Origin: Pseudomonas sp. DTU_2021_1001937_2_SI_NGA_ILE_001
Lineage (GTDB): Bacteria; Pseudomonadota; Gammaproteobacteria; Pseudomonadales; Pseudomonadaceae
DNA: 64,000 bases
NCBI RefSeq assembly: GCF_032463525.1
Contig: NZ_CP135971.1
Coordinates: 1,240,001-1,304,000, forward strand
Reading direction: 5' to 3'
The translations under genes and the position numbers were made by a program. Under the pieces are notes generated by a model, which was given only the letters and a program-made list of their open reading frames with translations, did not search any database and was not told the origin of the DNA. Below, one piece after another: positions 2,766 through 62,211 of the stretch (position 1 is its first letter; each line of letters starts with the position of its first letter).

Positions 2766-3055
2766 AGCCGCCCTACCGTTCGGCCAAGCGGCATGTAGTT
2801 CGGTAGGCAGCGGCTTTGGCCGCAATACAGTTCAGTCAGGCCGGGTAGGAGCGGCTTCAGCCGCGAAGCGACCGCATGTTCATGACAGATGCAGTGCATT
2901 TCCTGGCGCTTTCGCGGCTAAAGCCGCTCCCACCGAGCCACATGCCGCTTAAGCGAACAATATTGGCTTTAGCCGCGAAGAGGCCCCGAAGTTCACTGCA
3001 TCTGCCATGAACACAAGGCCGCTCCAGCCAGTACCTGAGCGGTCGGTCCGGGCCT
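2766..3055. repeat. Older, decayed copy of the 140-145 bp element, split by a younger insertion
   Basis: The 309-base gap 2753-3061 holds no gene. Its left part (about 2776-2821, with AAGCGGCATGTAG and CAGCGGCTTTGGCC) resembles the left half of the element seen intact at 9587. Its right part (2967 to about 3030, with CTTTAGCCGCGAAG, CACTGCATCTGCCATGAAC) resembles the continuation of the same element. Between them sits the complete younger copy at 2822-2966. The old copy is diverged and its outer limits are uncertain. Confidence 0.65.
2822..2966 (-). mobile_element. MITE-like element, copy A (145 bp), nested
   Basis: Reverse orientation relative to the copy at 9587, about 90 percent identical to it by eye over its full length. 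The ends are CAATACAG and CAATATTG, each with one extra base outside. Two REP-like hairpins (GGAGCGGCTTCAGCCGCGAA and CGCGGCTAAAGCCGCTCCC) face each other about 40 bases apart. The flanking octamers are CTTTGGCC (2814-2821) and CTTTAGCC (2967-2974), a target-site duplication matching at 7 of 8 positions. The target was the REP hairpin of an older copy. Confidence 0.8.
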
Positions 3056-3061
3056 GACGTC

Positions 3062-3415
3062 CTAAAGTGCGCGATGTACCAGGGTCGGCTTGGTGAAGCG
3101 GTGCGACTTGTCCACCTTGGCCTGCAGCTCGGTGAGTTGAGCCTGACCTTCCGCTTCAGTGGCGTAGGGGCCGAGTATGATCTGCTGCTTGCCTTCGATG
3201 TTGACGATTGTCGGTGCGTAGTGCCGTTCCAACAGCCAAGCGCTGGTGTCACTCACCGCCTCACGGGTATTCATCTGGATGTACCACTTCGGCTCGCTGA
3301 CCGGCGCTGCCGCCGCTGGCGCATTGGCCGTGTCGGAACGAGCCGGAGCCTCGGGCTTTCCGGCATCGCACGCCGCCAATGCCAGCATCGCCATCATCAT
3401 TACCATCTTGCGCAC
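3062..3415 (-). CDS. SPOR-like lipoprotein
   Basis: A 117-residue protein. I place the start at the GTG at 3415, because CAGGAGC lies eight bases upstream; the in-frame extension to 3454 would bury the signal peptide. MRKMVMMMAMLALAAC is a textbook lipoprotein signal with lipobox LAAC. After an Ala/Pro linker the domain KWYIQMN... IVNIEGKQQIILGPYATEAEGQ resembles a SPOR repeat, a fold that binds denuded glycan strands of peptidoglycan at the septum. It therefore probably sits in the outer or inner membrane facing the periplasm. The exact role is unknown. Confidence 0.75.
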   Translation of the reverse strand: MRKMVMMMAMLALAACDAGKPEAPARSDTANAPAAAAPVSEPKWYIQMNTREAVSDTSAWLLERHYAPTIVNIEGKQQIILGPYATEAEGQAQLTELQAKVDKSHRFTKPTLVHRAL

Positions 3416-3679
3416 GTGGGATCGCTCCTGATTGAAGAGGCGCGAGTCTATCACCCCTGACGGGTCGCTCGACGCCCTGCGTTAAGGTGCCGCAGCCCCT
3501 GGATAGCGCACCGAGCACGCCGCGCCTCGGGAAGCCTGAGGCTGAAGCGGGAACGACAATGATGTAATCGGATGTTTCGACACGCCGGTAAAACGGCCGC
3601 ACGGGCAATGCGCCGGTGACGGCGGTCTATGCTCAGCAGCGCACCTGCTTCATTCAAGCCTGTCGGCAGGAGTCCATCG

Positions 3680-4747
3680 ATGTGCAACCATGACCCGCTT
3701 CACTGTTTCGTACCGCCCTACATTCTCGAACACATGACCCAGTCCCCCCATCGCCGGGTCAGCCAATGCGCAATCGCCAACCTGGCCGGCGGCTCGGCGT
3801 TTCTCGCCAGCCGCCTTACCGCCCAGGCCACCCCCGGCCTGCTGCCCGTCCAGCCCGGCCCAGGCGGCAGACACCGCCTGATCTACGACGCGGAAGGTAC
3901 GCCAAGGCTGCCCGGACGCCTGGCGCGCAGCGAAGGCCAGCCCGACAGCGGCGATCCGGCAGTGGATGAGGCCTACGACGGGTCGGGCCTGGTCCATGAC
4001 TTCTACGACAAGCTGTTCGCGCGTGACTCGCTGGACGGCCAGGGCATGGCACTGGTTTCCACCGTTCATGTGGGCGAGGTCGACCTGCAAGGCGATGCGG
4101 TGCCATTGAACAACGCCTACTGGAATGGTCGGCAGATGGCCTACGGAGATGGCGACGGCGAGGTGTTCCGGCGCTTTACCGGCAGCCTGGAAGTGATCGG
4201 CCACGAACTCAACCATGGCCTGCAGAGCTTCACCTCCAACCTCACCTACCAGGGCCAGTCCGGCGCACTGAACGAGCATTTCGCCGATGTGTTCGGCATT
4301 CTGGTGCGCCACTGGCACGAGGGCACACCGGCTCGCGAGGCCAGCTGGCTGGTGGGCCGCGAATTGCTGGTGCCGGCCACCACACGACGCGGGATCCGCG
4401 ACATGGAACAACCCGGCCAGGCCTACCGCCAGGACCCCGACCTGGGCGACGACCCGCAGCCGGCCCACATGAGCGACCTCTATACCGGCCCGCGTGATCG
4501 TGGCGGCGTGCATATCAATTCCGGCATTCCCAACCGCGCCTTCGTACTGGTGGCCAAGGCGCTGGGCGGTAATGCCTGGGACGAAGCCGGGCGGATATGG
4601 TATGACACACTTCTGCAATTGCCAGCCGACAGTCAGTTTCTCGACTGCGCACGGCTCAGCATCGAGATTGCCGGGCGCAAGCCATACGGGCCTGCGGCGC
4701 GCAAGGCCGTGGCGGCCGCCTGGAGCGAGGTGGGTATCCTGGTCTGA
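3680..4747 (+). CDS. Protealysin-like M4 zinc metallopeptidase
   Basis: A 355-residue thermolysin-family protease. HELNHG at 175-180 supplies the two zinc histidines and catalytic Glu; GALNEHFAD at 195-203 supplies the third zinc ligand Glu199; GGVHINSGIPNRAF near 273 carries the substrate-binding Asn/His motif. There is no signal peptide. Instead the N-terminus CNHDPLHCFVPPYILEHM is the short propeptide with a PPY motif typical of protealysin-like enzymes, which lack the long FTP/PepSY propeptide of secreted thermolysins. Start chosen at 3680 because GGCAGGAG lies just upstream. The emfourin-like gene follows 20 bases later. The family is known to cleave intracellular proteins such as actin or OmpX in Serratia; the target here is unknown. 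Confidence 0.92.
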   Translation: MCNHDPLHCFVPPYILEHMTQSPHRRVSQCAIANLAGGSAFLASRLTAQATPGLLPVQPGPGGRHRLIYDAEGTPRLPGRLARSEGQPDSGDPAVDEAYDGSGLVHDFYDKLFARDSLDGQGMALVSTVHVGEVDLQGDAVPLNNAYWNGRQMAYGDGDGEVFRRFTGSLEVIGHELNHGLQSFTSNLTYQGQSGALNEHFADVFGILVRHWHEGTPAREASWLVGRELLVPATTRRGIRDMEQPGQAYRQDPDLGDDPQPAHMSDLYTGPRDRGGVHINSGIPNRAFVLVAKALGGNAWDEAGRIWYDTLLQLPADSQFLDCARLSIEIAGRKPYGPAARKAVAAAWSEVGILV

Positions 4748-4767
4748 TCCCGAGGAGGAAACCGTTC

Positions 4768-5067
4768 ATGAAAGTCTGTTTCGTCCAGTCCGGCGGATTC
4801 GTCGGTGCGGTGCGGCGTTATGAGGTCGACACGGAACAGTTGCCTGCCGAACTGGCCCAGCACCTGCGCCAACTGGTGCTGGACAGCGGCCTGCGGGCCT
4901 CGGGCCAAGTCATTGCAAGCCAGGCGCGCGATGGCCGGGAATACGAGCTGACCATCGAAGACCAGAGCAGTACCCTGTGCCTGGTGTTCGACGAGCACAA
5001 CATTCCCCAAGCCGTACGTCCTCTGCTGGGCTTTCTGCAACGCCAGGCCCGTCCGGACCGTCCCTGA
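4768..5067 (+). CDS. Emfourin-like inhibitor of the protealysin-type protease
   Basis: A 99-residue cytoplasmic protein with a short beta N-terminus carrying QSGGFVG (residues 7-13), then acidic/leucine-rich text LPAELAQHLRQLVLD and a C-terminal EYELTIED...TLCLVFDEHNIP. Emfourins are small, tight-binding inhibitors encoded next to protealysin-like M4 proteases; the SGG loop near the N-terminus is the part I recall as entering the active site. GAGGAAAC precedes the ATG, 20 bases after the protease stop, so the pair is one transcription unit. The assignment rests on context and the SGGF motif. Confidence 0.75.
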   Translation: MKVCFVQSGGFVGAVRRYEVDTEQLPAELAQHLRQLVLDSGLRASGQVIASQARDGREYELTIEDQSSTLCLVFDEHNIPQAVRPLLGFLQRQARPDRP

Positions 5068-5243
5068 GCGGCCCATGCCGGGCTGGCAGTCCGCCGCCCG
5101 GCAGTTCAGAATATCCGCCCGATGCCGGGCGAACGTCGTCCTGCGGCTGCGGTCCATCATGTAGCCGCACCCGCGCGGTCATTAACCTGTGTGCATAATT
5201 ACAAGCCGTCACCACGGTAACAGGGTATCTTCCCCTGCCCTGC

Positions 5244-5906
5244 ATGACTCTCTCAGAACCAGTATTCACGGTGCCGATGAGTATCGAACCTCCCAGCCCC
5301 CCGCCAGCGGGCCTGATCATCTGCGAGCACTGCGACTCGCTGTATGAGATCCACCCCTTGCGTGCCGGCGAAGCCGCCTATTGCCTGCGCTGCGCTGCGC
5401 TGCTCAGCCGTGGCCAGCGCATGTCGCTCGAACAATGGCTGGCGCTCACCCTCACGGCGGCCATGCTGTTCATCTTGGCCAACATATTCCCGGTCATCAG
5501 CATCAGCATGCAGGGCCTGAGCAACGAAGTGACCCTGTGGCAATCGGTGCAAGCCCTGGCCCAGGGCCGCATTACGCTGATCGCCCTGGTCGCCGGGCTA
5601 TCGATCATCTTCGCTCCGCTGCTGCAGATCGTCCTGCTGCTCTGGGTCTTGCTGCATGCTCAACGCGGCATCGTCGCGCCGGGCTTCAAGGCCTGCATGC
5701 GGGCACTCGAACACCTGCGACCGTGGAGCATGCTGGAAGTGTGCATGCTGGGGATCCTGGTGGCGATCATCAAGCTGGCCGGCATGCTCGATGTGCATCC
5801 CGGCGTCGGGCTCTGGGCCATGGCGATGCTCATGGTGCTCATCCTGCTGATCGCCAACCGCAACATCCGTCGCCTCTGGGACCTGCTCGAGGTACGGCCG
5901 ACATGA
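5244..5906 (+). CDS. pqiA: PqiA-family inner-membrane protein, first half-subunit
   Basis: A 220-residue protein with an N-terminal zinc-ribbon-like CEHC...CLRC pair (about residues 26-56) and four predicted membrane segments in the following 160 residues. E. coli PqiA is one polypeptide with two such halves; here the halves are two genes. With PqiB and PqiC it forms a bridge moving lipids between the inner and outer membranes. The start is uncertain: ATG 5244 and ATG 5277 are both possible and neither has a strong ribosome-binding site. The stop overlaps the next start in an ATGA. Confidence 0.88.
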   Translation: MTLSEPVFTVPMSIEPPSPPPAGLIICEHCDSLYEIHPLRAGEAAYCLRCAALLSRGQRMSLEQWLALTLTAAMLFILANIFPVISISMQGLSNEVTLWQSVQALAQGRITLIALVAGLSIIFAPLLQIVLLLWVLLHAQRGIVAPGFKACMRALEHLRPWSMLEVCMLGILVAIIKLAGMLDVHPGVGLWAMAMLMVLILLIANRNIRRLWDLLEVRPT

Positions 5907-6517
5907 GCCGCATCCCCTATGCCTGGCAGCATCGGCTCAACCTGTGCCACCTCTGCGGCTATGCCTGCCCTGAGCACGCCCACTGCTGCCCGCGCTGCGA
6001 TGCACCGGTACACCACCGCAAGCCAAACAGCATCGCCCGTACCTGGGCATTTCTCATTGCCGGCATGATCTTCTACATACCGGCCAACGTGTTGCCGGTG
6101 ATGTACACCAACATGCTCGGCAACAGCAGCGAAAGCACGATCATGAGCGGCGTGATCGATTTCTTCCATCACGGCTCCTGGGACATCGCCCTGCTGATCT
6201 TCATCGCCAGCGTACTGGTGCCGTGCCTGAAATTCGCCGTGCTCGGCATGCTGCTGGTGACCTGCCAGCGGCGCAGCCGCTGGGCGATGGTCGAGCGTAC
6301 CCGCCTGTATCGCTTCATCGAGCTGATCGGCTACTGGTCGATGCTTGATGTGCTGGTCGTGGCCCTGGTGGCTTCCCTGGTGCAGTTCCGCGAACTCAGC
6401 AGTATCGAGCCGCGCATCGGCATCCTGTTCTTTGGTTTGGTCGTGGTGATGACGATGTTCGCCGCCATGAGTTTCGATCCCCGGCTCATCTGGGACGCAG
6501 AGGTTGAAGATGTCTGA
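5903..6517 (+). CDS. PqiA-family inner-membrane protein, second half-subunit
   Basis: A 204-residue protein starting MSRIPYAWQHRLNLCHLCGY, with CHLC and CCPRC zinc-ribbon cysteines in residues about 15-32 followed by four hydrophobic segments (for example AFLIAGMIFYIPANVLPVM and IALLIFIASVLVPCLKFAV). It is the counterpart of the C-terminal half of E. coli PqiA. The start overlaps the preceding stop (ATGA) and its own end overlaps pqiB by 8 bases, implying translational coupling along the operon. Confidence 0.9.
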   Translation: MSRIPYAWQHRLNLCHLCGYACPEHAHCCPRCDAPVHHRKPNSIARTWAFLIAGMIFYIPANVLPVMYTNMLGNSSESTIMSGVIDFFHHGSWDIALLIFIASVLVPCLKFAVLGMLLVTCQRRSRWAMVERTRLYRFIELIGYWSMLDVLVVALVASLVQFRELSSIEPRIGILFFGLVVVMTMFAAMSFDPRLIWDAEVEDV

Positions 6518-8186
6518 CAACACCCCCCCGAAAACGGCCGCTACACCACCTCAGCCGCAGATCAGGCAACGCAAGGCGCGCATCTCGCTGGTATGGCTGG
6601 TGCCCATCGTCGCCGGCCTGATCGGCCTGTCGATGGCTCTGCACGACTGGATGAACCTGGGTCCGAAGATCACCGTGAGCTTCGAGACCGCCGAGGGCCT
6701 GGAAGCCAACAAGACCCAGGTCAAGTACAAGAACGTGGTGATCGGCATGGTCACCGCCATCAGCCTCAGCGAGGATCGTACCCACGTTCTGGCCACCATC
6801 GAGCTGAACAACTCCGCAGGCCCCTTCACCCGCGTCGACAGCCAGTACTGGGTGGTACGACCGCGTATCGGCGCGCACGGCATCTCCGGGGTCGACACCC
6901 TGCTGTCGGGAGCCTTCATCAACGCCGACGCCGGCAACGCCGAGCAGACCACTCATGAGTTCGTCGGCCTGGAAACCCCGCCGCCGGTAACCTTCGGGGA
7001 AAAGGGCAAGCGCTTCATCCTGCACACCGACGACCTCGGCTCACTGGATATCGGCTCGCCGATCTATTACCGGCGCATCCAGGTCGGCCAGGTGGTGGGC
7101 TACAACCTGTCCGATGACGGCAAGGGTGTCGACGTGCAGATCTTCATCAATGCTCCCAACGACAAATACATCACCACCGACACGCGCTTCTGGAACGCCA
7201 GTGGCGTGGACGTCACGGTCGGTACCGCCGGCCTGAAGATCGACACCCAGTCACTGGCGTCCATCGTCTCGGGCGGTATCGCCTTCCGTGAACCGAACTG
7301 GAGCCCCGACGCCAAGCCCGCCGCCGAGAACGCGGAGTTCCGTATCTTCGACGACCAGGCCACCGCGCTGGCGCCGCCAGACGGCGACCCACTATATATC
7401 CGCATGCGCTTCAAGCAGTCGCTGCGTGGCCTGGCGGTCGGTGCCCCGGTGGACTTCCTGGGCGTCAACATCGGCAAGGTGCTGTCCGTTGACCTCGACT
7501 ACGATGGCGATACCCGCACCTTCCCTGGGGTGGTCGGTGCGCTGATCTACCCAAAGCGCCTGGGCGCCGCCGAAGAAAAACTTCGCGACCTGGCCGGCAA
7601 CGGCGATCCCGACGAGCAGTCGGCACGTATTCTCGGCTCATTCATCGGCAATGGCCTGCGCGCGCAGGTACGCACCGGCAACCTCCTCACCGGCCAGCTG
7701 TACATCGCCATGGAGTTCGATCCCAAGGCTCCCAAGGTCACCTTCAACCCCCGGGCACGACCTCTGGAAATTCCCACGGTGCCTGGCAGTTTCGACAAGC
7801 TTCAGGAGCAGTTGCAGGCCTTCGTCGACAAGCTCGGCCGGGTGCCGATCGACGAACTGGCCGCCAACCTCAACGGCAGCCTGAGCGAACTGCAAAAGAC
7901 CCTCAAGACCGTCAACGGCAGCGTGCTGCCGCATGTGCGCGGTACCCTGCAGCAGGCGGAGAAGACCCTGGCCAGCGCCAACGACAGCCTGGCCGAGGAC
8001 TCGCCAGGCCGCCAGCAGCTCGGCCAGATGCTTGAAGAAGTGCAACGGGCCGCACGCTCGATGCGCGTGCTCACCGACTTCCTCAGCCGCCAGCCCGAAT
8101 CGCTCATCCGTGGCCGTAGCGGCGATGCCGCGCCGGCGTCGTACAAGAGTTCGTCACGCACCAAGACCCTGGAGCCGCAACAATGA
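6510..8186 (+). CDS. pqiB: PqiB, MCE-domain lipid-transport tunnel protein
   Basis: A 558-residue protein with one N-terminal membrane anchor (about residues 26-48, LVWLVPIVAGLIGLSMAL) and three MCE (MlaD-like) domains. Visible MCE signatures are FETAEGLEANKTQVKYKNVVIG, then GSPIYYRRIQVGQVVGY and GAPVDFLGVNIGKV. A C-terminal helical region (LQEQLQAFVDKLG to about 530) forms the periplasmic needle in the E. coli protein. Start ATG 6510 is preferred over the TTG at 6504, with AGAGGTTGA upstream. Part of the coupled pqiA-pqiA'-pqiB-pqiC operon. Confidence 0.93.
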   Translation: MSDNTPPKTAATPPQPQIRQRKARISLVWLVPIVAGLIGLSMALHDWMNLGPKITVSFETAEGLEANKTQVKYKNVVIGMVTAISLSEDRTHVLATIELNNSAGPFTRVDSQYWVVRPRIGAHGISGVDTLLSGAFINADAGNAEQTTHEFVGLETPPPVTFGEKGKRFILHTDDLGSLDIGSPIYYRRIQVGQVVGYNLSDDGKGVDVQIFINAPNDKYITTDTRFWNASGVDVTVGTAGLKIDTQSLASIVSGGIAFREPNWSPDAKPAAENAEFRIFDDQATALAPPDGDPLYIRMRFKQSLRGLAVGAPVDFLGVNIGKVLSVDLDYDGDTRTFPGVVGALIYPKRLGAAEEKLRDLAGNGDPDEQSARILGSFIGNGLRAQVRTGNLLTGQLYIAMEFDPKAPKVTFNPRARPLEIPTVPGSFDKLQEQLQAFVDKLGRVPIDELAANLNGSLSELQKTLKTVNGSVLPHVRGTLQQAEKTLASANDSLAEDSPGRQQLGQMLEEVQRAARSMRVLTDFLSRQPESLIRGRSGDAAPASYKSSSRTKTLEPQQ

Positions 8187-8797
8187 CCCTGCGCCTGAAA
8201 CTCGCTGTCCTGGCCACGGCCCTGGGGCTGGCCGCCTGTTCCTCACCGACCATGCACTACTACACGCTGGTCGCGCCGTTGCACAGCGAAGCAACCAGCG
8301 GCGCGCCTGCGCCGTTCCAGTTCGAGATGCTACCCGTATTGCTACCCGTCCAGGTCGACCAGCCACCGCTGGTGGTGCGCCAGGGTGACGGCAGCCTGGC
8401 CATTCTCGATACCGAACGCTGGGGTGCACCGTTGGGGGATGAATTCCATGACGCCCTGACCGCACAGCTCGAACAGCGCTGGGGTCGCCGTGACATGGCC
8501 GGCCTGCCGAAGGAAGGCGACCTGCCGGTGCTGTCGCTGCGCACCGACGTGCGTCGCTTCGAGTCGGTGCCCGGCCAGTATGCACTGCTCGATGTGGTCT
8601 GGAACCTCAGCCTGCGTGGTGGCGCAGAGGGCGGCAAACGCCAGACATTGACCTGCAGCAGCGTGATTCGCGAGCAGGCCGGTAGCGGGTTGGACAGTCT
8701 GGTAATCGCGCATCAGAAGGCCATCTCGCGCCTGGCTGACAGCATCGCCCGCGGCACACAGGCGTGGGTCAGCCAGCCGGGCAAAGGCTGCCCATGA
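8183..8797 (+). CDS. pqiC: PqiC, outer-membrane lipoprotein of the Pqi system
   Basis: A 204-residue lipoprotein (DUF330/ABC-type transport auxiliary family). The signal MTLRLKLAVLATALGLAAC ends in a lipobox LAAC, and SSPTMHYYTL is the start typical of PqiC/YmbA. The domain contains LPVLLPVQVDQPPLVVRQG and WGAPLGDEFHDAL, the usual family landmarks. ATGA overlap with pqiB. PqiC is thought to dock the PqiB needle to the outer membrane. Confidence 0.9.
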   Translation: MTLRLKLAVLATALGLAACSSPTMHYYTLVAPLHSEATSGAPAPFQFEMLPVLLPVQVDQPPLVVRQGDGSLAILDTERWGAPLGDEFHDALTAQLEQRWGRRDMAGLPKEGDLPVLSLRTDVRRFESVPGQYALLDVVWNLSLRGGAEGGKRQTLTCSSVIREQAGSGLDSLVIAHQKAISRLADSIARGTQAWVSQPGKGCP

Positions 8798-9087
8798 GCG
8801 TCGCAGCGTCGAGCGATACCCGGGAACAGGTGCCGCTCGAGGGGTGTAATACTTCTGTTACCCATAATTAACCGAGCCGCGTTCAAAATCGTACAAAAAA
8901 GTTCAAATCCCCCCTACTGTCCTCGCTGATTTCCGGGTAATGTTCGCGCTCTGTAACATTGTTCTGCGAACTCCCACATACGACCATCAGTTGCTGCTGT
9001 TCCAGCTAGCAGGTCTGTTCGCTTCTTCTTACGTCAATTTATACGCAAGGCTTACACCCTATGCGGCAGATTTTCGAGGACAAACGG
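8798..9087 (+). promoter_or_regulatory. AT-rich leader/promoter region of the XRE regulator
   Basis: This 290-base gap between pqiC and the XRE gene has no convincing ORF. It is clearly more AT-rich than its surroundings around 8850-9060. It contains two direct GTTCAAA repeats (8881 and 8899), a possible autoregulatory site for the following repressor-like gene, and several TATA-like hexamers. No terminator hairpin with a T-run is evident after pqiC. Confidence 0.35.
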
Positions 9088-9534
9088 ATGACAGGGATCG
9101 GTCCCCGCCTGAAACGCGAACGCGTACGCCTGAAACTTTCCCAAAGCGCCCTGGGCGCCATAGGCGGCGTGGAGGCCAACGCCCAAGGCAACTACGAGAA
9201 TGGCCTGCGCTCACCGCGCGCCGATTACCTGTCGAAGCTGTCGGAAGTCGGGATCGATGTGAACTACGTGATCACCGGCCGCAAGATGCCGGCGCCCGCC
9301 AACGACAACGCCACCGCTGAATCCGAAAGCCTGCTGGAACAGACGGTGTCGGGTCTGCATGCGAGTCTGCACGGCATGAACCAGCACCTTTATCAGCTGG
9401 CGCGGCTGCTCGAGGCCCGGCAAGGCCAGGACGAAGATCTCGACCACGAGTACGTGCAGAACCTGTGCAAGGACGCCGAGGCGATCAGCCTGGCGGCGGT
9501 AAGGCTCATCTACAACACGGCAAGAACCCGCTGA
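9088..9534 (+). CDS. XRE/CI-type helix-turn-helix regulator
   Basis: A 148-residue protein. The N-terminal Cro/CI DNA-binding domain spans about residues 4-60 (GIGPRLKRERVRLKLSQSAL with the recognition helix region around GNYENG and SPRADYLSKL). A helical C-terminal half (SLLEQTVSGLHASLHGMNQH) may mediate dimerisation; there is no peptidase S24 domain. I prefer ATG 9088, with a GAGG site upstream, over ATG 9061, which has none. It stands alone between pqi and the sigma-factor pair; its targets are unknown. Confidence 0.8.
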   Translation: MTGIGPRLKRERVRLKLSQSALGAIGGVEANAQGNYENGLRSPRADYLSKLSEVGIDVNYVITGRKMPAPANDNATAESESLLEQTVSGLHASLHGMNQHLYQLARLLEARQGQDEDLDHEYVQNLCKDAEAISLAAVRLIYNTARTR

Positions 9535-9586
9535 ATCACCAGCAGGCTCGCTTCGACGGTCTCACTGGCCAGCATCGACTGAAACA

Positions 9587-9731
9587 CCAATACTGTTCGC
9601 TTAAGCGGCATGTGGCCCGGTGGGAGCGGCTTTAGCCGCGAAAGCGCCAGGAAACTTACTGCATCTGTTGTGAACATGCGATCGCTTCGCGGCTGAAGCC
9701 GCTCCCACCCGGTCTAACTGATCAGTATTGG
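9587..9731 (+). mobile_element. MITE-like element, copy B (145 bp), reference copy
   Basis: The best-preserved copy. Terminal inverted repeats CCAATACTG (9587-9595) and CAGTATTGG (9723-9731) are perfect. Inside lie two REP-like hairpins in inverted orientation, GGGAGCGGCTTTAGCCGCGA near 9622 and TCGCGGCTGAAGCCGCTCCC near 9687, separated by a conserved spacer with CTGCATCTGTTGTGAAC. The element is flanked by a perfect 8-bp duplication CTGAAACA (9579-9586 and 9732-9739). It sits 15 bases beyond the fecR-like stop codon. No ORF. Confidence 0.88.
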
Positions 9732-9746
9732 CTGAAACACACACCC

Positions 9747-13907: not shown

Positions 13908-13964
13908 AGGCCAGTCAGTCCGGCCTGGCAGCGAGGTGAAGCCTGCGCTGTATTGCGCTAAAGA

Positions 13965-14105
13965 CCAAAACTTGTCAGTTAGACCGGGTAGGAGCTTCAG
14001 CCGCGAAGCGACCGCCTTTCACAACAGATGCAGTGAGTTTCCTGGCGCTTTCGCAGCTGAAGCCGCTCCCACCGCGCCACATGCCGCTTAATCGAACAGT
14101 ATTGC
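13965..14105 (-). mobile_element. MITE-like element, copy C (141 bp)
   Basis: Reverse orientation. Ends are CCAAAACTTG on the left (diverged) and CAGTATTG on the right. Two REP-like hairpins and the conserved spacer are present; the left hairpin has lost a few bases (GGAGCTTCAGCCGCGAAG). The flanking duplication is GCTAAAGA (13957-13964 and 14106-14113), perfect. The right copy of the duplication contains the stop codon of the phzF-like gene (14107-14109). Confidence 0.85.
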
Positions 14106-14106
14106 G

Positions 14107-14949
14107 CTAAAGACTGATATGACCGTCGATGCACGCGACGGCATCGCCGCCCACCCAGATGTCATCGCCCATCCGCTGCACGTGCACCCGGCCATCGCGA
14201 CCGATCGCCGTACCCTGGCAAACCACGTAGCGCTCCACAGCCAGCCCCTCGTCGAACAACCAGCGTGCGATGCCGGCGTTCAGGCTGCCGGTCACCGGGT
14301 CTTCCGGCATGCCGTCGCCACCGATGAAGGCGCGCACCTCGAAGTCCGCCTGCTCACCCTCTGTCGCCGGATCGCAGGCCGCGAACAGGCCCACGGCCAG
14401 GCCGTCGAGCTGGCTGAAGTCCGGTTTCACCGCCAGCACCTCAGCGCGGCTGGCCAGGCGCAAGGCCATCCAGCCGGCGCCATTGTCGACCCAGCGCGCC
14501 TCGAGCACCTGTCCGGTCGCCAATCCCAACGCCGCGCAGACTCGCGCCTGCAGCTCGGCCTGCAACGGACCGCTGCGCAGCAAGGGCGGTGCGGTAAAGG
14601 CCAGCCGGGACCCATCGCGACGAATGCGCACCAGCCCGATACCACACTGCTGGATGATTTCCTCGCCCTTGGCTACGCCACCGGCCTCCAGCCATGCCCG
14701 GCAACTGCCGAGGGTCGGATGCCCGGCGAAGGGCAGTTCCTTGACGGTGGTGAAGATCCGCACCCGATAATCGGCACGTGGATCGGTGGGCTGCAACAGG
14801 AAGCAGGTTTCACTGAGGTTGGTCCAGTTGGCCAGTGCCGCCATCTGCTGCTCGCTCAGCGTGTCGGCCTGCAGCACCACCGCCAGCGGATTGCCCAGCA
14901 AAGGGCGGTCGGTGAACACATCGAGTTGTTTGAAGGCATAGCGGCGCAT
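14107..14949 (-). CDS. PhzF-family isomerase/epimerase-like protein
   Basis: A 280-residue protein with the diaminopimelate-epimerase-like double fold. Visible landmarks: FKQLDVFTDRPLLGNPLAVV at the N-terminus, NWTNLSETCFL carrying the catalytic Glu near residue 45, LPFAGHPTLG, and MPEDPVTGSLNAGIA in the C-terminal half. PhzF isomerises dihydro-3-hydroxyanthranilate in phenazine makers, but isolated homologues such as YddE have unknown substrates and no phz genes are near. Start at 14949 has GGGAG upstream; 14967 does not. Confidence 0.88.
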   Translation of the reverse strand: MRRYAFKQLDVFTDRPLLGNPLAVVLQADTLSEQQMAALANWTNLSETCFLLQPTDPRADYRVRIFTTVKELPFAGHPTLGSCRAWLEAGGVAKGEEIIQQCGIGLVRIRRDGSRLAFTAPPLLRSGPLQAELQARVCAALGLATGQVLEARWVDNGAGWMALRLASRAEVLAVKPDFSQLDGLAVGLFAACDPATEGEQADFEVRAFIGGDGMPEDPVTGSLNAGIARWLFDEGLAVERYVVCQGTAIGRDGRVHVQRMGDDIWVGGDAVACIDGHISL

Positions 14950-37085: not shown

Positions 37086-37219
37086 TTGTATGCATGTGCC
37101 TTGCAACGCCGGCACAAGCGGCTTCAGCCGTGAGACGCCGGCAGGATCAGCCTATCCGCTGTTATGAACATGCGCTCGCTTCGCGGCTGAAGCCGCTACC
37201 CCTGAATGACCAACATTGC
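37086..37219 (+). repeat. Decayed copy of the MITE-like element (copy D)
   Basis: The right half (ATGAACATGCGCTCGCTTCG, GGCTGAAGCCGCTACC, then CAACATTG) matches the reference element; the left half is strongly diverged and no target duplication can be found. It ends two bases before the poxB stop codon. Confidence 0.65.
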
Positions 37220-53818: not shown

Positions 53819-53830
53819 ACGGCACATCGC

Positions 53831-55416: not shown

Positions 55417-55565
55417 GGCTGACCCTCCTGCCGCAAGCGGGCGCTGACGACGGTGATGAGACGTGTCTGAAAGGAAAGAGCTGAAAGGATTAAGTTCACG
55501 ATGCATGCCTGACCGGGCGCTGACACAACGACAAAGTCCCATGCCCGGCCCAGAATGCGACTCTA

Positions 55566-55670
55566 TCATCGGTCTCGCCAACCCGAAGGTGTCCGCGCCA
55601 CGGCCGACTGGCCAGGCATGTTGACGCGAACGCTCCGGCATTGGCACCGGAGCAGGCTACTCCCCAACAA
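55566..55670 (-). promoter_or_regulatory. yybP-ykoY (Mn2+) riboswitch
   Basis: Reading the - strand, TTGTTGG (P1) leads into GGAGTAGCC (loop L1); then come the hairpin GCTCCGG/CCGGAGC, GTCAACATGCC, a second arm, and GGCGAGACC (loop L3), closing with CCGATGA, which pairs with the start of P1 using G-U wobbles. GGGGAGTAGC and GC(A/G)AGACC are the two invariant metal-binding loops of the yybP-ykoY class. The downstream gene is the SMP-30-like protein. Upstream is a metE fragment on the same strand. Confidence 0.85.
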
Positions 55671-55738
55671 GTGGCGCCAGTCTAGCCACGCCCATGTGAA
55701 AAAAATATCAACGGGTCAGTCGCACGGCAGGGCGTGGC

Positions 55739-56815
55739 TTATGCGGCACGCAGGGTGCCGTGTGGCTCTGGCTGCCGCAGGGCCGAAGCCAGCAACGCCA
55801 CCTCTTGGCACTTACGCAGCGCAACGACATGCACGCCATCGGGCACGGCGTCCTGCTGGTCAGGATGCTTCTGCTCGGGCTGCAGTGCACAGGATGGCGC
55901 CACCCAGAGCCGTTCGCCCAGGCGCTCCCGGGCCTGGCGCAGCAGCGCGTGGGCCTTGCCCAGGTCGTCGTGGCCGGCGTTGCGGCCATCGACCACGCCA
56001 AGGGACAGAATCTTGTAGGCCGGCAGACGGTCAACCACGATAGGGAGCTGTTCGGGAGCGCACACCAGGTCCACATGCAGGCCGTCCACCGGTAACCCGG
56101 CGGCCAGGCCCAGGTTGCTCGCCAGGGCGCCGAAACACGTGGCCACCAGCTTCTTCAGCGGCTCGCGTTGCAGCAGGTTGTAGACCCGTTCGTAGGCATT
56201 CTTCCAGTCCTGCGGCAGCTCCAGGCCAAGGATCGGTTCGTCGATCTGCACCCACTCCACCCCTTGGGCTGCCAGGCGCTGGAAGATCTGCCCGTATAGC
56301 GGCAGCAGCCGGTCGACCAGTTCCAGCTTGTCGAACTCGGCACCTTGGCCCTTGCCCAGCCACAGATAGGTCAAGGGGCCGATCACCACCGGCTTGACCG
56401 CATGACCCAGGGCATGAGCCTCGTCGACCTCCTCGAACAACGACTCCCAGTTCAGGGTGAAGACCTGCCCGGCAGTCAATTCGGGGACCGTGTAACGCGC
56501 AGGGCCGTCGAACCACTGCGCCTGCGGATGAGCCGCAGCGCCGTCAGCCAGGCCTGGCAAGGTGTGCCGCCCCGGGGGAATCACGCCGAAGGCCTGCGAG
56601 TGGTTCAGCACCGTGTCGCCCCAGGCGAAGTCACCCACCGGCAGCAGCTCGATGCCAGCGTCCTTCTGCAGTTGCCAATGCGCGGCACGCAGGTTGCGGC
56701 CCACCGCGTGCAGACCGGCTTCGTCGAGTTCACCAGAGCGGAACGCGGCCTTGGCCTTGTGCAGTTCAGAATCGCGCCCGATGGACGGAAATCCCAGATT
56801 ATGTGCCAAGGCCAT
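55739..56815 (-). pseudogene. metE (fragment): N-terminal fragment of cobalamin-independent methionine synthase (MetE)
   Basis: A 358-residue frame resembling only the N-terminal domain of MetE (full length about 755). NLGFPSIGRDSELHKAKAAF, LPVGDFAWGDTVL, VKPVVIGPLTYLWLGKGQG, IEWVQ-like VEWVQIDEPILGLELP and GLPVDGLHVDLV are well kept. Around residue 320-340 similarity falls off and the frame ends in GTLRAA. The C-terminal domain with the zinc/homocysteine ligands is absent and no remnant is seen in the 322 bases downstream. It cannot be an active methionine synthase by itself. The genome presumably has another metE or metH. Confidence 0.75.
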
Positions 56816-56952
56816 GTCGTGTGCTCCGCTGCAAAGATTCGATGGCGGCATTCTGGTCAGGCTCGAACCCTGAGGCAAACTCATAAATTTGAAGATGGTC
56901 CTCAGTTTTATTCATGTTGAATGCCGCCGAGTGAACTTCCAGGCGGGCAAAC

Positions 56953-57094
56953 CCAATACTGTTCGCTTAAGCGGCATGTGGCCCGGCGGGAGCGGCTTTA
57001 GTCGCGAGAGCGCCGGGAAATTCAGTGCATCTGTTGTGAACAGGCGGTCGCTTCGCGGCTGAAGCCGCTACCCGGTCTAACTGACCTGTCTTGC
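56953..57094 (+). mobile_element. MITE-like element, copy E (142 bp)
   Basis: Left end CCAATACTG (56953-56961) is perfect; the right end CTGTCTTG is diverged. Two inverted REP-like hairpins and the spacer CAGTGCATCTGTTGTGAAC are present. Perfect flanking octamers GGGCAAAC (56945-56952 and 57095-57102). It lies in the divergent gap between the metE fragment and the MTHFR-like gene. Confidence 0.85.
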
Positions 57095-57186
57095 GGGCAA
57101 ACCTCGTCCCGCAACGTCGTTTCTGGACAAGGTACTGGCCCGACATTGCGGGACAATCAGCTATCCCAGCCTCAGGCAGCGACACT

Positions 57187-58773
57187 ATGCTCACCCTCAG
57201 ACAAGCCCTGCACAACGCGCCTTTCGTGTGTCTGGTGGAGTTCGTGCCCAAGCCCACGGACAAGAGCTTCGCGACGTTCGAAACGCAGATGCAGCGCACC
57301 CAGGTGTGTGGCTGGCCCCTGCTGGGTACCATCGCTGACCGAGTCGGCAGCCGCTTCGACCTGACGCCGCTGGATGCTTACCAACGACTGCGCCAGCCGG
57401 TGCCGGCACTGGTGCATTTTTCCGGCAAGGATCGCGAACGCAGCGACCTGCTCGCGCAGCTCGAGCGCATGCAACGCCTGGGCCTCGAGCAGTTGTTCAT
57501 CGTCACCGGCGACCGCCTGCCCGGCCATGAACCCGGCCAGCAGCCGGTGCGTTACCTGGAGTCGGTCGCCGCCCTGCAGATCGCCCGTCAGGCGCGCCCG
57601 AACTGGCTGCTGGGCGCCGCGCTCAATCCCTTCAAGTACCGCGAAGAAGAACGCGGCGCACAGTATTTCAAGGCCGAAAAAAAGCTGGCCGCCGGTGCGG
57701 ACTTTCTCAGCCTGCAACTGGGCTACGACCCCGAGTGCCATGTGCAGGCACTGCAATGGATGCGCCGCCAGCCCTCGCCCCGTCCGATGCTGGCCTGTGT
57801 CATGGCGCTCACCGCCGGGCGGGCGAAGATGCTCGAACACGTGGCCGGCACCGTGGTCAGCCCGTCGATGCTGGCTGCCGTCAGCGCCGAGGCCGAGGTG
57901 TCCAAGGCGTTCGCCCAGCAACGCAGCCTCGAGCGCCTGGGCCTGCAGATAGTCGGTCTGCAATTGATGGGCTATGCCGGCGTGGAACTCTCTGGCATTC
58001 ACGACGCCGACCAACTGCAAGCGCTGGAGCAGGCCATCGAACACTGGCAGGCGCGCATCGCCACGCTGGATCAGTGGTTCCCGGCCTGGCAGGCCAGCTG
58101 GCAGCTGCCGGGCCACCCCGCCGTGACCTTCGCACCGGCACAGCCTGCCGGGCAAACCGACCTTTCGCCGGCCAGGGCCAGCCTCAAGGAGCGGCTGCGC
58201 TACCACCTGCTGCGGGGTCTGCACCATCAACTGTTCAGCCGTACCACCCTGCTCAGTCGCACCTTCGGCTGGGCGGTGCGTCGCCCCATGTGGGCGACCC
58301 CAGGGGGCGCAAGGGCTCTGGAAAAGCTCGAACGCAGCCTCAAGCGGCCGCTGCTGGGCTGTGACACCTGCGGCCGATGCCGCCTGGAAGACACCCTCTA
58401 CGTCTGCCCGGAAAGCTGCCCCAAAGGCCTGGCCAACGGCCCTTGCGGTGGCACCCGGTTGAACCGCTGCGAGTTCGGTGACCGCGAGTGCATCCACAGC
58501 ATCAAGTACCGCATCGCCGTGTCCGCGCGCCAGACCGACGTACTGACCCAGCGGCTGATCCCCTGCGTTGAGGCCCCCAGCCGCCATCGCAGCTCCTGGC
58601 CGGGCTGGTTCGCGCCCCCTTCCCAGGCAGGCGCCGATCCAGTAACGGCGTTCAACCCTCCCCCAGCACGGCCAACACCTCGCGCAAACGAGCCACAGCC
58701 GCTGCCGAACAGGCCTGCATCGGCGCCCGCAGCCCGGGCGCCAACCACCCCTGCAGCGCCAGCGCAGCCTTGA
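57187..58773 (+). CDS. Methylenetetrahydrofolate-reductase-like protein with C-terminal cysteine-rich domain
   Basis: A 528-residue protein. The MTHFR TIM barrel (about 10-310) includes FVCLVEFVPKPTDKSF, LFIVTGDRLPGH and LGAALNPFKYREEERGAQYF. A Cys-rich MTHFR_C domain follows (about 390-440): CDTCGRCRLE, CPESCPKGLANGPCGG, RCEFGDREC. Such fusions occur with THF-linked demethylation or one-carbon enzymes. The last 45 residues (NPPPARPTPRANEPQPLPN and on) are low complexity and lie antisense to the dapA-like gene, with which the gene overlaps by 122 bases. Start 57187. Confidence 0.85.
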   Translation: MLTLRQALHNAPFVCLVEFVPKPTDKSFATFETQMQRTQVCGWPLLGTIADRVGSRFDLTPLDAYQRLRQPVPALVHFSGKDRERSDLLAQLERMQRLGLEQLFIVTGDRLPGHEPGQQPVRYLESVAALQIARQARPNWLLGAALNPFKYREEERGAQYFKAEKKLAAGADFLSLQLGYDPECHVQALQWMRRQPSPRPMLACVMALTAGRAKMLEHVAGTVVSPSMLAAVSAEAEVSKAFAQQRSLERLGLQIVGLQLMGYAGVELSGIHDADQLQALEQAIEHWQARIATLDQWFPAWQASWQLPGHPAVTFAPAQPAGQTDLSPARASLKERLRYHLLRGLHHQLFSRTTLLSRTFGWAVRRPMWATPGGARALEKLERSLKRPLLGCDTCGRCRLEDTLYVCPESCPKGLANGPCGGTRLNRCEFGDRECIHSIKYRIAVSARQTDVLTQRLIPCVEAPSRHRSSWPGWFAPPSQAGADPVTAFNPPPARPTPRANEPQPLPNRPASAPAARAPTTPAAPAQP

Positions 58774-59518
58774 CCGGTGCCGGATTCGGCTCGATGAAAG
58801 CCGCCTGCAGCCACGGCAGCAGGCGGTAGAAGGTCTGCCGCGCCAGCGCCAGCTCGCCGTCCTCGACCTGCCGCTGCAGCCTCACGTAGAGGTCGGCGCG
58901 CACATGTGCTGACACCGAGATCGCGCCGGCGCCACCCAGGCACAGGTTGTTGAAGATCTGCAGGTCTTCGCCGGTCAGAATCTCGGCATGGCCGTCGTAG
59001 ATAAGTGCGGTGGTGGTTTCCAGGTCGCCGCCGCAGTCCTTCACCGCCGCGATGCGCGGGTGACGCACGATATGCCGCAGCGTCTCGCGCTCGAAGCGCA
59101 CACCGGTGCGGTAAGGGATGTCATAGAGCACCAGCGGCACGCTGGCGGCATCGGCAACCGTCTGGAAAAAAGCCTCCAGGCCGGCCTGGGACGGACGGAT
59201 GTAATACGGCGCCGGCACCAGCAGCCCGGCCAGCGGGCGGGTCTGCACCTGCTGCTGGAAAGCCAGCAGTTCGCGCAGGTTGTTGCCGGCCAGGCCCATG
59301 ATCACCTGCTGGCCCGGCACCCGTTGCAACACCGCATCGAGCACCGCCAATTGCTCGGCATGGCTGAGCGCCGCCGCCTCGCCGGAAGTGCCACACACCA
59401 CCAGACCCCGTACGCCGTCGTCCAGCAGTTTGCCGGCGAGGTCCTGCAACGCGGGAAAATCGATTTCACCGTCACGAAACGGTGTGACCAGGGCTACCCA
59501 GATACCACGAAATGACAT
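58652..59518 (-). CDS. Dihydrodipicolinate-synthase-family aldolase
   Basis: A 288-residue TIM-barrel of the DapA/N-acetylneuraminate-lyase family. VALVTPFRDGEIDF and VVCGTSGEAAALSHAE near the N-terminus bind the pyruvate carboxylate; YDIPYRTGV supplies the Tyr and AAVKDCGGD the Schiff-base Lys near residue 160. It condenses or cleaves pyruvate with an aldehyde. An additional DapA-like enzyme next to an MTHFR-like gene suggests a catabolic, not lysine-biosynthetic, role. Convergent with and overlapping the MTHFR gene. Confidence 0.92.
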   Translation of the reverse strand: MSFRGIWVALVTPFRDGEIDFPALQDLAGKLLDDGVRGLVVCGTSGEAAALSHAEQLAVLDAVLQRVPGQQVIMGLAGNNLRELLAFQQQVQTRPLAGLLVPAPYYIRPSQAGLEAFFQTVADAASVPLVLYDIPYRTGVRFERETLRHIVRHPRIAAVKDCGGDLETTTALIYDGHAEILTGEDLQIFNNLCLGGAGAISVSAHVRADLYVRLQRQVEDGELALARQTFYRLLPWLQAAFIEPNPAPVKAALALQGWLAPGLRAPMQACSAAAVARLREVLAVLGEG

Positions 59519-59902
59519 GCATGTTCTCCTTGAACTGACCGTTGGGTCTCGTCAGGGAGGGAGGCGGGAGCGAGTGCTGGGAGGGGGTTACCTGGCGCCA
59601 TCGTGTCCTGTCAGCCCATCTGACGGGACAGCGCGCCCCGGTCAAATGAGCGACTGTTTCTTGGATTTCTTGGCAACGGACAGGCATGCGCCAGCCTGCA
59701 GGCGGGAGCCTGGCAGCAGGGGCGTATGGTCAAGGCTCGAAAGCATTGGGAGTCCGTTGCGATGAAGGTGCCCGGCGATCATGGGGGCCACGCCCGTCGA
59801 TTGTCAACTGGCATTCTGCCCACGCGCACGATGGCTTTAAGCCATTAATCTGCTTAAGCTCCACCTTCGCCACGCCAATCAACGGAAGGAAAAGGATCAG
59901 TA
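59519..59902. other. Divergent gap with a 27-bp inverted repeat
   Basis: No gene is supported in these 384 bases. TGTCCTGTCAG (59604-59614) and CTGACGGGACA (59620-59630) form an inverted repeat with one G-T mismatch and a five-base centre, a possible regulator site or terminator without T-run. The stretch 59830-59902 is less GC-rich and must hold the promoter of the DUF262-DUF1524 gene; AAGGAT lies before its ATG. Confidence 0.45.
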
Positions 59903-61915
59903 ATGGCTTCCAGTGACATGAATCTACGCTCGTTAGGCGAGCTACTCGGTGAGTTCAGCTTTGAAATTCCCGACTACCAACGCGGTTACTCCTGGACGCA
60001 ACCCCAATGGCAGGCCCTGTGGCGTGATGTACGCCACCTTGAACAGAACAACCTGCATCAGCATTTCACCGGCATGATGCTGGTGCGACGGCTCGAGCAT
60101 TCAGCCAAGGCGCCGACGCTCGAACTGATCGACGGCCAACAGCGCCTGGTCACCAGCATGGTGTTCGCCAATGCCCTGCGTGCCCGGCTCGAACAGAAGG
60201 CCCAGCCCTATGCGATCAACTTCAATGACAATCCGGAGTTTCAGGACTACTTCAGCTTCTATGCCCTGAACCGGTTGTCGGTCGAGGCCCGGCTCGCCCG
60301 CGACGCTTCGAGTTACGCACTGAACCTTAAAGCCGCCGCGCACTGGTTCACCGAGCAGGCGGATCAACTGACCCCGAAGCAAGCCGATGCGATGCTCACC
60401 GCGTTGCTGGACAAGTGCTGCCTGTTCATGCTCGAAGTATCCAGCCGTTTCGATCTGCATGTTGCCTTCGAGACCCTGAACAACCGGGGTCGGCCGCTTT
60501 CGAAGATGGAACTGCTGAAAAATCGCCTGATCTACCTCACCACTGTTCTGCCCCCCCAGGAACAGGCGGCGACGTCGCTACGCGAGCAGATCCACAGCGC
60601 CTGGAAAGGCATTTATCGCGCCTTGGGGCGTAGTGCAAAAACCCAGAACCACGACGATGAATTCCTGCAAGCCCACACCACGGCCTATTTCGGTCGCTCG
60701 CGTGAGGCCGATTGGCTGGACAAGGTGCTGTTCGAGACACAGTTCTGCATCGACAACGCCGAGCTCTCGTTCGCCGCGATCAACGAGTACATCCAAAGCC
60801 TGGAAACCGCCGCAGTATGGTGGTCACACGTGCATGCGCCAGAGCAATTGCCCAAGGCGCTTCAGAAGCACCTGGACCGGCTGACCCATTGCGGATTCGG
60901 CTATTTCAAACCGCTGATCCTCGCCGCGTGCCTGCGCATCGCCAATGACCTGCCCGGGGCGACGGTTCGTCCCGCCGAGTTCGCCAAGGCGCTATCGCCT
61001 CTGGAGACCTTGTTCGAGCAAATCGAACGTTTCGTCGTCATTGTGTTTCGCTTGCTGGGCAACCGTGGTACGTACGGCAAAGCGGACGTGGACTGGGCGG
61101 CCTACGAGTTGTCGAAGGCCGGCCGCAGCGGCTTTCTCAGCGATCACTACGGCATGACCGCGACTGACGCCGCGGGCGTTATCCGCTTCGCCGCCGATTG
61201 GCTGAAGGCGTATATCTGCAATATGGACCCCGCCTCGGATGAGTATCTGGATGAGCGCTTCGATTGGGAGGGCGCGTTTTCTCAGTCAGCCTTGCAAAGC
61301 AGCATCGATAAACGCTTCCAGAAAGGCGACGGCTATTACAACTGGGATTTCACCCGCCTGGCGCTGTTCGAATACGAATCGCATTTCCAGCTGGAGGGCA
61401 ACCACCCACCCAAGGTGGCATGGAGCACGTTCAGCTTCGATGAAACAGTCGAGCACATCTTCCCGCAGAATCCCTCGGGCCTGGGCCTGGCCTATTGGAA
61501 CGAGCAGATTCCCATCGACGGCCGCTCCAACCGTGGTGGCAAACTGAGCAAGGCTTTGCAGAACTCCCTCGGTAACCTCCTGCTGTTATCGCGCAGCAGC
61601 AATGCAGCGGCATCCAACGAAGCCTACTGGCTCAAGTCCGGTCGTGAAGAAAGTGGCAAGCGGGTGCGCTTCCGTAACGCCAGTTATTCCGCCACCGAAG
61701 TGGCGCAGCAGTATCAGCAATGGAATACCCAGAGCATTGCGGTGCGCGGGATCAGCTTGTTGAAGTTCATCGAACAACGCTGGAGCATCTGCCTGAGCGA
61801 GACCCCAGAAGACCTGCAAAGCTACCTGCCTCTGTGCTTCGGCCCGCAGACGGAAGCGGTCAAGGACGGCAAGACCGGCAAGCTGTCATCGCGCAGCCTC
61901 AAAGCCAAACCCTGA
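59903..61915 (+). CDS. DUF262-DUF1524 protein, GmrSD-type restriction/anti-phage nuclease
   Basis: A 670-residue soluble protein. The N-terminal DUF262 (ParB-fold NTPase-like) domain starts FEIPDYQRGYSWT and has the signature LELIDGQQRLVTS (DGQQR at 77-81); RFDLHVAFETLNNRGRPLSK is the second conserved stretch. The C-terminal DUF1524 HNH nuclease has TVEHIFPQN (about 516-524) and NSLGNLLLLSRSSNAAASN. GmrSD cuts glucosylated hydroxymethylcytosine phage DNA; related SspE proteins sense phosphorothioate DNA. There is no methylase or dnd/ssp gene beside it, so it is a stand-alone type IV-like defence gene. All catalytic motifs are intact. Confidence 0.9.
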   Translation: MASSDMNLRSLGELLGEFSFEIPDYQRGYSWTQPQWQALWRDVRHLEQNNLHQHFTGMMLVRRLEHSAKAPTLELIDGQQRLVTSMVFANALRARLEQKAQPYAINFNDNPEFQDYFSFYALNRLSVEARLARDASSYALNLKAAAHWFTEQADQLTPKQADAMLTALLDKCCLFMLEVSSRFDLHVAFETLNNRGRPLSKMELLKNRLIYLTTVLPPQEQAATSLREQIHSAWKGIYRALGRSAKTQNHDDEFLQAHTTAYFGRSREADWLDKVLFETQFCIDNAELSFAAINEYIQSLETAAVWWSHVHAPEQLPKALQKHLDRLTHCGFGYFKPLILAACLRIANDLPGATVRPAEFAKALSPLETLFEQIERFVVIVFRLLGNRGTYGKADVDWAAYELSKAGRSGFLSDHYGMTATDAAGVIRFAADWLKAYICNMDPASDEYLDERFDWEGAFSQSALQSSIDKRFQKGDGYYNWDFTRLALFEYESHFQLEGNHPPKVAWSTFSFDETVEHIFPQNPSGLGLAYWNEQIPIDGRSNRGGKLSKALQNSLGNLLLLSRSSNAAASNEAYWLKSGREESGKRVRFRNASYSATEVAQQYQQWNTQSIAVRGISLLKFIEQRWSICLSETPEDLQSYLPLCFGPQTEAVKDGKTGKLSSRSLKAKP

Positions 61916-61969
61916 ACCGGCCGTTGCCACCTGCCAGCAGCGCTGCGTCGGCCACCGCCGCAGCCAATC

Positions 61970-62050
61970 AGCTGGCGAAAGGGTCAGGAAATTCAGCGTA
62001 TCTGCCGTTAACATGAGGTCGCTTCGCGGCGGACGCCGCTGCGGTCCAAC
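61970..62050 (+). repeat. Decayed partial copy of the MITE-like element
   Basis: GCGAAAGGGTCAGGAAATTC, TATCTGCCGTTAACATGAGG and CGCTTCGCGGCGGACGCCGC align with the middle and right half of the reference element but no ends or target duplication survive. It lies directly left of copy F in the 298-base gap 61916-62213. Confidence 0.6.
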
Positions 62051-62071
62051 CGAGCGGCATGGCGTTCAAGG

Positions 62072-62211
62072 GCAATACTGTTCGATCAAGCGGCATGTGT
62101 CCCGGTGGGAGCGGCTTTAGCCGCGAAAGCGCCAGGAAACTCACTGTATCTGTCGTGAACAGGTGGTCGCTTCGCGGCTGAAGCCTACCCGGTCTGACTG
62201 ACCCGTATGGC
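62072..62211 (+). mobile_element. MITE-like element, copy F (140 bp)
   Basis: Left end CAATACTG is perfect; the right end CGTATGG is diverged. The hairpins and the spacer ACTGTATCTGTCGTGAAC are present; the second hairpin has lost a few bases (GGCTGAAGCCTACC). Perfect octamers GTTCAAGG flank it (62064-62071 and 62212-62219). The right octamer contains the stop codon of the LysR gene. Confidence 0.85.

Follow-up and report, generated by a model that had tools for sequence, protein, structure and literature searches.

We analysed a window of 64,000 nucleotides (contig NZ_CP135971.1, positions 1,240,001 to 1,304,000) from the genome of Pseudomonas sp. DTU_2021_1001937_2_SI_NGA_ILE_001, here called G000, in which five copies (A to E) of a short repeated element, each 138-143 bp long and bounded by CAATACTG...CAGTATTG, are flanked by direct repeats. 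The element is a miniature inverted-repeat transposable element (MITE), being short (143 bp) and non-coding with terminal inverted repeats CAATACTG/CAGTATTG, and its interior is a repetitive extragenic palindromic (REP) sequence doublet forming a hairpin (REPIN), with two inverted REPs beginning GT[AG]G and a spacer between them.

Copies of the element in the window

Copy A (2823..2965, minus strand, 143 bp) lies between the 10-bp target copies GCTTTGGCCG (2813..2822) and GCTTTAGCCG (2966..2975; no strand is assigned to any of the target copies), which match at 9/10 positions. It was inserted inside a REP of an older, now broken element on the plus strand, whose left and right parts occupy 2773..2822 and 2966..3023, and when these flanks are rejoined through one 10-mer, an unbroken relative of the element results (54.7 bits). 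Copy B (9588..9730, plus strand, 143 bp), whose flanks ACTGAAACAC (9578..9587) and GCTGAAACAC (9731..9740) also match at 9/10, contains REP 1, GTGGGAGCGGCTTTAGCCGCGA, at 9620..9641 on the plus strand and REP 2, inverted, at 9683..9708 on the minus strand. The three remaining copies have identical target pairs: copy C (13966..14104, minus strand, 139 bp) with CGCTAAAGAC at 13956..13965 and 14105..14114, copy D (56954..57093, plus strand, 140 bp) with CGGGCAAACC at 56944..56953 and 57094..57103, and copy E (62073..62210, plus strand, 138 bp) with CGTTCAAGGG at 62063..62072 and 62211..62220. Two degenerate copies lie on the plus strand, one without a recognised left end at 37110..37219 (52.4 bits) and the other adjoining copy E at 61975..62060 (49.1 bits).

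An earlier reading of this DNA without database searches (the sequence-only reading) had placed the five copies with their common ends, the plan of hairpin, spacer and inverted hairpin, and direct repeats at a constant offset, and all of these were borne out. It had counted one base too many at each end, however; the last of its nine terminal bases is part of the target copy, which makes the target duplication 10 bp long. It had also described the copies as intergenic, which holds for A, B and C, none of which overlaps an open reading frame (ORF) of at least 80 aa with a third-position GC content (GC3) of at least 0.7, but not for D, which reaches 3 bases into the start of one ORF call, or for E, which overlaps a 110-aa ORF call, such calls being mechanical and not proven genes.

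Structure and abundance

The left end, CAATACTGTTCGCTTAAGCG, is followed by the REP GTGGGAGCGGCTTTAGCCGCGA, a spacer of ~41 bp containing TGCATCTG and TGTGAAC, and an inverted REP; the right end, read inward, is CAATACTGGTCAGTTAGG. Copy B, as single-stranded DNA, folded much better than shuffled sequences did (z = -7.1). The element is 143 bp long in 42/67 two-ended copies, and across these 42 copies conservation was 0.989 and 0.975 in the two REPs, 0.952 in the left end, 0.903 in the right end and 0.907 in the spacer. At least two REP types occupy one end frame: a second subfamily in G000 has GCGAGCTTGCTCGC stems, and elements in G149, a genome of another species of the genus, use the same frame and share part of the spacer, with other REP stems.

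The G000 genome (5.66 Mb, two contigs) contains at least 102 matches to copy B, reverse-strand cross-matches being counted and the best 40 of 340 candidates scored, and 108 non-redundant matches were present in the 247 kb of stretches fetched from it. After 41 of these had been excluded as partial or low-scoring, 67 two-ended copies were used for counting duplications; they are not a census, because the stretches (from the 40 of 340 candidates scored) were fetched for the matches they hold. Three other stretches, L120, L121 and L307, did not enter the analysis. A contiguous 464 kb including the window held 34 matches, 12 of which cover at least model positions 3 to 144 (one of them at only 20.5 bits), and a rough extrapolation from this region gives ~150 matches per genome. 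The copies in the window are genuine members of a large MITE family. Tandem arrays with a period of 153 bp (143 + 10), at C1:4746772-4747444 and 1899722-1900146, fit an arrangement in which neighbours share one 10-mer. In the plasmid collection, no match to the MITE was found.

Target duplication and target preference

The 10-bp flanks of the 67 two-ended copies had a mean identity of 0.772, compared with 0.467 for randomly paired flanks (maximum 0.554 in 300 shuffles), with 23/67 pairs perfect and 37/67 having at most one mismatch; matches of at least 9/10 were thus seen in 37/67 true pairs versus 366/4422 mismatched pairs (8%). All other lengths from 4 to 14 together gave one perfect pair, at length 9, and mean identity was slightly above the shuffle maximum at lengths 4 (0.366 vs 0.332) and 7 (0.177 vs 0.168). 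The 8-bp duplication proposed in the sequence-only reading was rejected, as there were neither perfect pairs nor any excess at length 8, and flank identity peaks at 10 bp.

Positions 5 and 6 of the 5' 10-mers are T and A, respectively, each in 57/67 copies, and the 10-mers cluster around CGGCTAAAGC and its complement, which is the REP core. In 18 copies the 5' target copy was unlike the REP core, and 11 of these 18 pairs still matched at 9/10 or better. Neighbouring copies share target copies: the element end of another copy abuts across the 10-mer in 31/67, and a REP-like context was present on at least one side in 34/67 and on both sides in 11/67, counts for which no control was computed.

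Empty sites in a sister strain

A metagenome-assembled genome (MAG), G411, probably represents the same species as G000, long alignments between the two being mostly 97-99% identical (range 94-100). With 58 flank probes placed in G411, comparison of the 67 sites revealed 44 that could be placed on both sides, of which 29 were filled, 6 empty and 9 complex, and 23 that could not (the script scored 28 filled and 7 empty; site 4248338 was counted as filled after the G411 sequence had been read). The sites of window copies A and B were filled. The empty ones were those of window copies C and D together with 4248487, 4670481, 5230190 and 1900003; each holds exactly one 10-mer, and what is missing is the whole element (139-143 bp) together with one 10-mer and not merely the REPIN. 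These sites confirm that the element had been inserted along with one target copy. The site of copy E could not be read, because the sister strain lacks ~2.4 kb up to and including E.

Among these insertions, the copy at 4670481 is nested in a REP of another copy, and the copy at 1900003 is a tandem unit, for which recombination is an alternative cause of the empty site. The target copies match at 9-10 of 10 positions at the six empty-in-sister sites compared with a median of 8 at filled sites (one-sided p = 0.015), as expected of younger insertions. At two complex sites, 382252 and 4843152, G411 instead contains one more copy, next to another target copy. The one at 382252 carries the other REP type; the one at 4843152 (L231, C1:4843152) is a mosaic whose left REP is of class II and whose right REP is of class I, which suggests that the subfamilies have recombined. 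The element has been mobile since G000 and the sister strain diverged. On the sister site of C1:5230190 (L252, ~1295), the empty site lies within a 224-aa ORF call, and the G000 insertion there may touch a gene.

When 1.3 kb around copy B was compared with 38 genomes (its own included), no match from another genome spanned the site among the best 10 candidates per genome. A scan of named genomes with a 43-mer of the MITE matched only one MAG, uncultured Pseudomonas sp. S1C11885_SP265.

REP interior and RAYT homologues

Our census of REPs in the 464 kb covered those that deviate from one of three class patterns at no more than one position. Of 31 class-I REPs, 23 had a CAATACTG-like sequence (6/8 or better) at -45 to -15, versus 6.9% of 4000 random points, and at the stricter level of at least 7/8 the figures were 14/31 and 0.4%; ends accompanied 3/7 class-II and 0/4 class-III REPs. 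Eleven loci from other genomes (L296-L306) contain REPINs of similar plan in G020 and class-I REPs in G012 and G024. Eight of them have no CAATACTG or CAGTATTG within one mismatch, and L300, L302 and L303 each match one or the other once, with a single mismatch; the likeness of the G020 spacer to that of the MITE was judged by eye, in addition to 72-75% matches over the REPIN. Three of the G020 loci (L296, L298 and L299) are tandem REPIN arrays with GGGACCGGCTTTAGCCGGGAA-type REPs. Since other genomes of the genus contain same-plan REPINs and same-class REPs that lack these ends, the REPIN was more likely captured by this element than generated in it; of the two possibilities named in the sequence-only reading, hairpins taken aboard are favoured and the element as their source is disfavoured.

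A PF01797 search revealed two homologues of REP-associated tyrosine transposases (RAYTs) in G000. The one on contig C2 (L282:1183-1794; NF047646, 149.6 bits) has class-II REPs around it. The chromosomal homologue, on C1 (L285:1213-1791, ~220 kb; 98.9 bits), is accompanied by no class I-III REP across the 3.2 kb inspected and, judging by its motifs, has apparently lost the catalytic HxH histidine and tyrosine. A RAYT with class-I REPs, and hence one cognate to the element, was not found among the two homologues.

A candidate mobilising insertion sequence

The ends resemble those of the IS4 family, and a search of the genus for Nterm_IS4 gave matches in 18/199 genomes. One of the 30 IS4-type loci fetched, that in G149, has CAATACTG ends around a transposase. 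This insertion sequence (IS) of 1473 bp (C1:5396749-5398221; L077:452-1924) has the ends CAATACTGTTCACTTAAGC and CAATACTGTTCAGTTAGAC, which agree with those of the MITE at 18/20 positions on the left and 17/20 on the right (16/20 crosswise), and lies between the target copies GGGCTAAAGC and CGGCTAAAGC, the second of which is directly followed by a MITE-like left end with REPs. The pieces of its transposase score 184 and 47 bits against NF033592 (IS4 family, cut-off 115). An uninterrupted protein of 403 aa, P0001, from a contig of 1454 bases, is 99% identical to this transposase, and both contain the IS4-typical motif Y..R...E......K. Among 398 same-genus genomes, the transposase was found only in G149 (E <= 1e-60) and exact-end elements of 122-152 bp only in G000 (7) and G149 (2), with 0 in the reversed control; scanning of named genomes for the transposase gave no match.

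The named family nearest to the G149-type enzyme is ISBvi1 (62% protein identity). Two ISBvi1-like elements of Cupriavidus have the ends CAATACTGTTCAGATAG and AAATACTGTTCAGATAC and the 10-bp copies CGGCTAGACA and ACTTTAAGCC, as read by eye. The MITE has the end sequence of this subgroup (the two Cupriavidus members and the G149 IS being compared), its 10-bp duplication at a TA-centred target, and ends in common with a transposase-bearing element, the G149 IS with its interrupted transposase. Five other IS4-group elements with both ends were inspected by eye, of which L065, L073, L076 and L093 have 11-bp copies and L067 none; L076 and L093, from the genus, have CAATGCTG ends. In G000, an IS with a 341-aa DDE_Tnp_1 transposase is present in three copies (L061, L062 and L063); it was considered as a partner and rejected, its ends, read by eye, being unlike those of the MITE.

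A REPIN carried by a probable IS4-type MITE

We consider it probable (about 0.85) that the element belongs, as a MITE, to the ISBvi1-like subgroup of the IS4 family, has a REPIN as its interior, is moved in trans and prefers REP-core targets. A transposase supplied in trans would bind the ends CAATACTGTTCRCTTAAG (left) and CAATACTGNTCAGTTAG (right) and move the 143-bp unit, apparently by cut and paste, making a 10-bp staggered cut at sites with a central TA, typically CGGCTAAAGC. As the core of several Pseudomonas REPs and the class-I REPs of the element itself contain this sequence, insertions would tend to enter REPs, other copies, or the target copy beside an existing element, and would therefore produce nested insertions and head-to-tail arrays, with the REPs spreading as passengers. 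The sequence-only reading had assigned the movement to a DDE-type transposase; ends, duplication length and target now point most likely to the IS4 family and its ISBvi1-like subgroup, whose enzyme would act in this species too. The likely mover here is the G149 IS or a relative, ISBvi1-like with CAATACTGTTC ends.

It is tempting, though somewhat less than an even bet, to go further and suppose that class-I REPs in this lineage have come to depend for their dispersal on a DDE (IS4-type) system, in which a REPIN-MITE chimera carries its favoured landing site, the REP core, twice, each insertion adds targets and so drives nested and tandem growth, and REP types are exchanged within one end frame.

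Several observations weigh against the IS4-type MITE. No active enzyme turned up in this species, the sister MAG (4.8 Mb) lying outside the search; the profile search gave no Nterm_IS4 match in G000, which has only the three copies of one different DDE_Tnp_1 IS. The transposase gene in G149 is interrupted by one stop, the MITE-like copy adjoining the IS has no recognised right end, and MITE and IS are alike over only ~20 bp per end. The exact-end pattern is strict, finding 7 elements in a genome (G000) with no fewer than 67 two-ended copies, and would therefore miss weak copies in other genomes. The 10-mers are not more palindromic than chance; a palindromic target found no support in a composition-preserving shuffle test (mean of 3.01 matches, compared with 2.73 in the shuffles, whose maximum was 3.64). 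Conservation is higher in the REPs than in the ends (0.975-0.989 and 0.90-0.95 in the 42 copies, which were collected by similarity), a difference that a pure passenger model would not lead one to expect. Finally, identity to the class-I consensus is 80-98% among the six polymorphic copies and 92-96% between these and their nearest relatives, so that a very recent burst has not taken place.

Other explanations must account for the same data. One is that a RAYT (IS200/IS605-like) moves the REPIN alone, within outer arms and direct repeats that are older surroundings. This would be in keeping with the class-II REPs around the C2 RAYT (NF047646, 149.6 bits) and with REPINs lacking the outer ends in other species, but is very unlikely: that RAYT neighbours class-II and not class-I REPs, the C1 homologue stands without class I-III REPs and, judging by its motifs, has apparently lost its catalytic residues, and at the six empty sites the whole 139-143 bp and one 10-mer are absent, which refutes mobility by RAYT alone. 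What moves is the whole element with its 10-bp duplication and not a unit bounded by REPs; the inverted ends, 10-bp copies and empty sites uphold the view of the sequence-only reading that this is a non-autonomous element not moved by a RAYT. Spread only by recombination or local duplication, with the direct repeats representing pre-existing REP-core sequence, is suggested by the 153-bp tandem arrays, by the many target copies that resemble the REP core, and by the empty site 1900003, where a tandem unit could be removed by recombination; however, target copies unlike the REP core match too (11/18 at 9/10 or better), and five dispersed empty sites, each with exactly one 10-mer, refute a recombination-only origin and make it extremely improbable. 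The failure to find an IS4-type transposase in the host genome would suit a DDE transposase from outside the ISBvi1-like subgroup, with the G149 IS a coincidence or a mere neighbour, but both ends, the 10-bp duplication, the target and co-occurrence in a genome all match the IS4 subgroup, and we regard this alternative as distinctly unlikely.

REPs and REPINs are regarded as dependent on RAYTs, and the IS4-type MITE provides comparative evidence that REPs can also spread as cargo of an unrelated transposition system. Counts of REPs as a measure of RAYT activity become harder to interpret, and there is a concrete route by which REPs may persist without a RAYT of their own. The MITE is also a testable case of an element carrying its own target sequence.

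Other features of the window

The minus strand at 55507-55674 matches the model of the yybP-ykoY manganese riboswitch (RF00080) with 45.4 bits, the gathering score being 45.

Comparison with known systems

No description of the element was found in the open-access literature, among the matches listed, ISfinder and subscription journals lying outside the search, and to that extent the claim of the sequence-only reading that it is not a described element stands. In the excerpts of a MITE review used here (PMC10969869), the words 'IS4' and 'REPIN' do not occur, and PMC3733652 and PMC3686654, likewise in excerpt as are all papers cited below, treat REPs.

REPINs have been tied to RAYTs (Bertels and Rainey 2011, PMC3116915), and known IS200/IS605 members are described as having neither terminal inverted repeats nor larger target duplications (Nunvar 2010, PMC2817692). 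The interior of the MITE resembles the REPIN/RAYT system in its GTGGGA-hairpin REPs arranged as inverted pairs with a spacer (PMC3116915, PMC2817692), but in this case IS4-type ends and 10-bp duplications enclose the REPIN, whose presence or absence follows that of the whole unit. REPs are also targets of ISs, including the IS4-family ISRm22, for which 6-bp direct repeats are reported (Tobes and Pareja 2006, PMC1525189); ISRm22 shares with the MITE insertion of an IS4-family element into REPs but is a full IS with 6-bp repeats, whereas the MITE additionally carries REPs itself.

Small repeats of other kinds have been described in Pseudomonas, among them R0 and R2, which were later recognised as RAYT/REPIN elements. 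R0 (89 bp) and R2 (110 bp) come from P. fluorescens SBW25 and are reported to have inverted repeats in common with two ISs (PMC2718517), and MITEPsy1 is 100 nt long with 4-nt duplications (PMC3189936). All three resemble our MITE as small, non-autonomous repeats with terminal repeats common to an IS (PMC3189936, PMC2718517), and the excerpts on R0 and R2 contain no mention of a target duplication (PMC2718517).

A further likeness, in ends and target, is to the ISBvi1-like IS4 elements of Cupriavidus (NZ_CP017750, annotated as ISBvi1 family, and NC_007974, unannotated), which have CAATACTGTTCA / AAATACTGTTCA ends and 10-bp duplications at TA-centred targets such as CGGCTAGACA, as does the MITE; unlike it, the Cupriavidus IS is 1455 bp long and has a transposase, the protein that is 62% identical to the G149-type enzyme. 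MITEs, REPINs and IS4 elements are kinds already known, and what is new here is a MITE of IS4 type that has a REPIN within it and favours REP-core targets.

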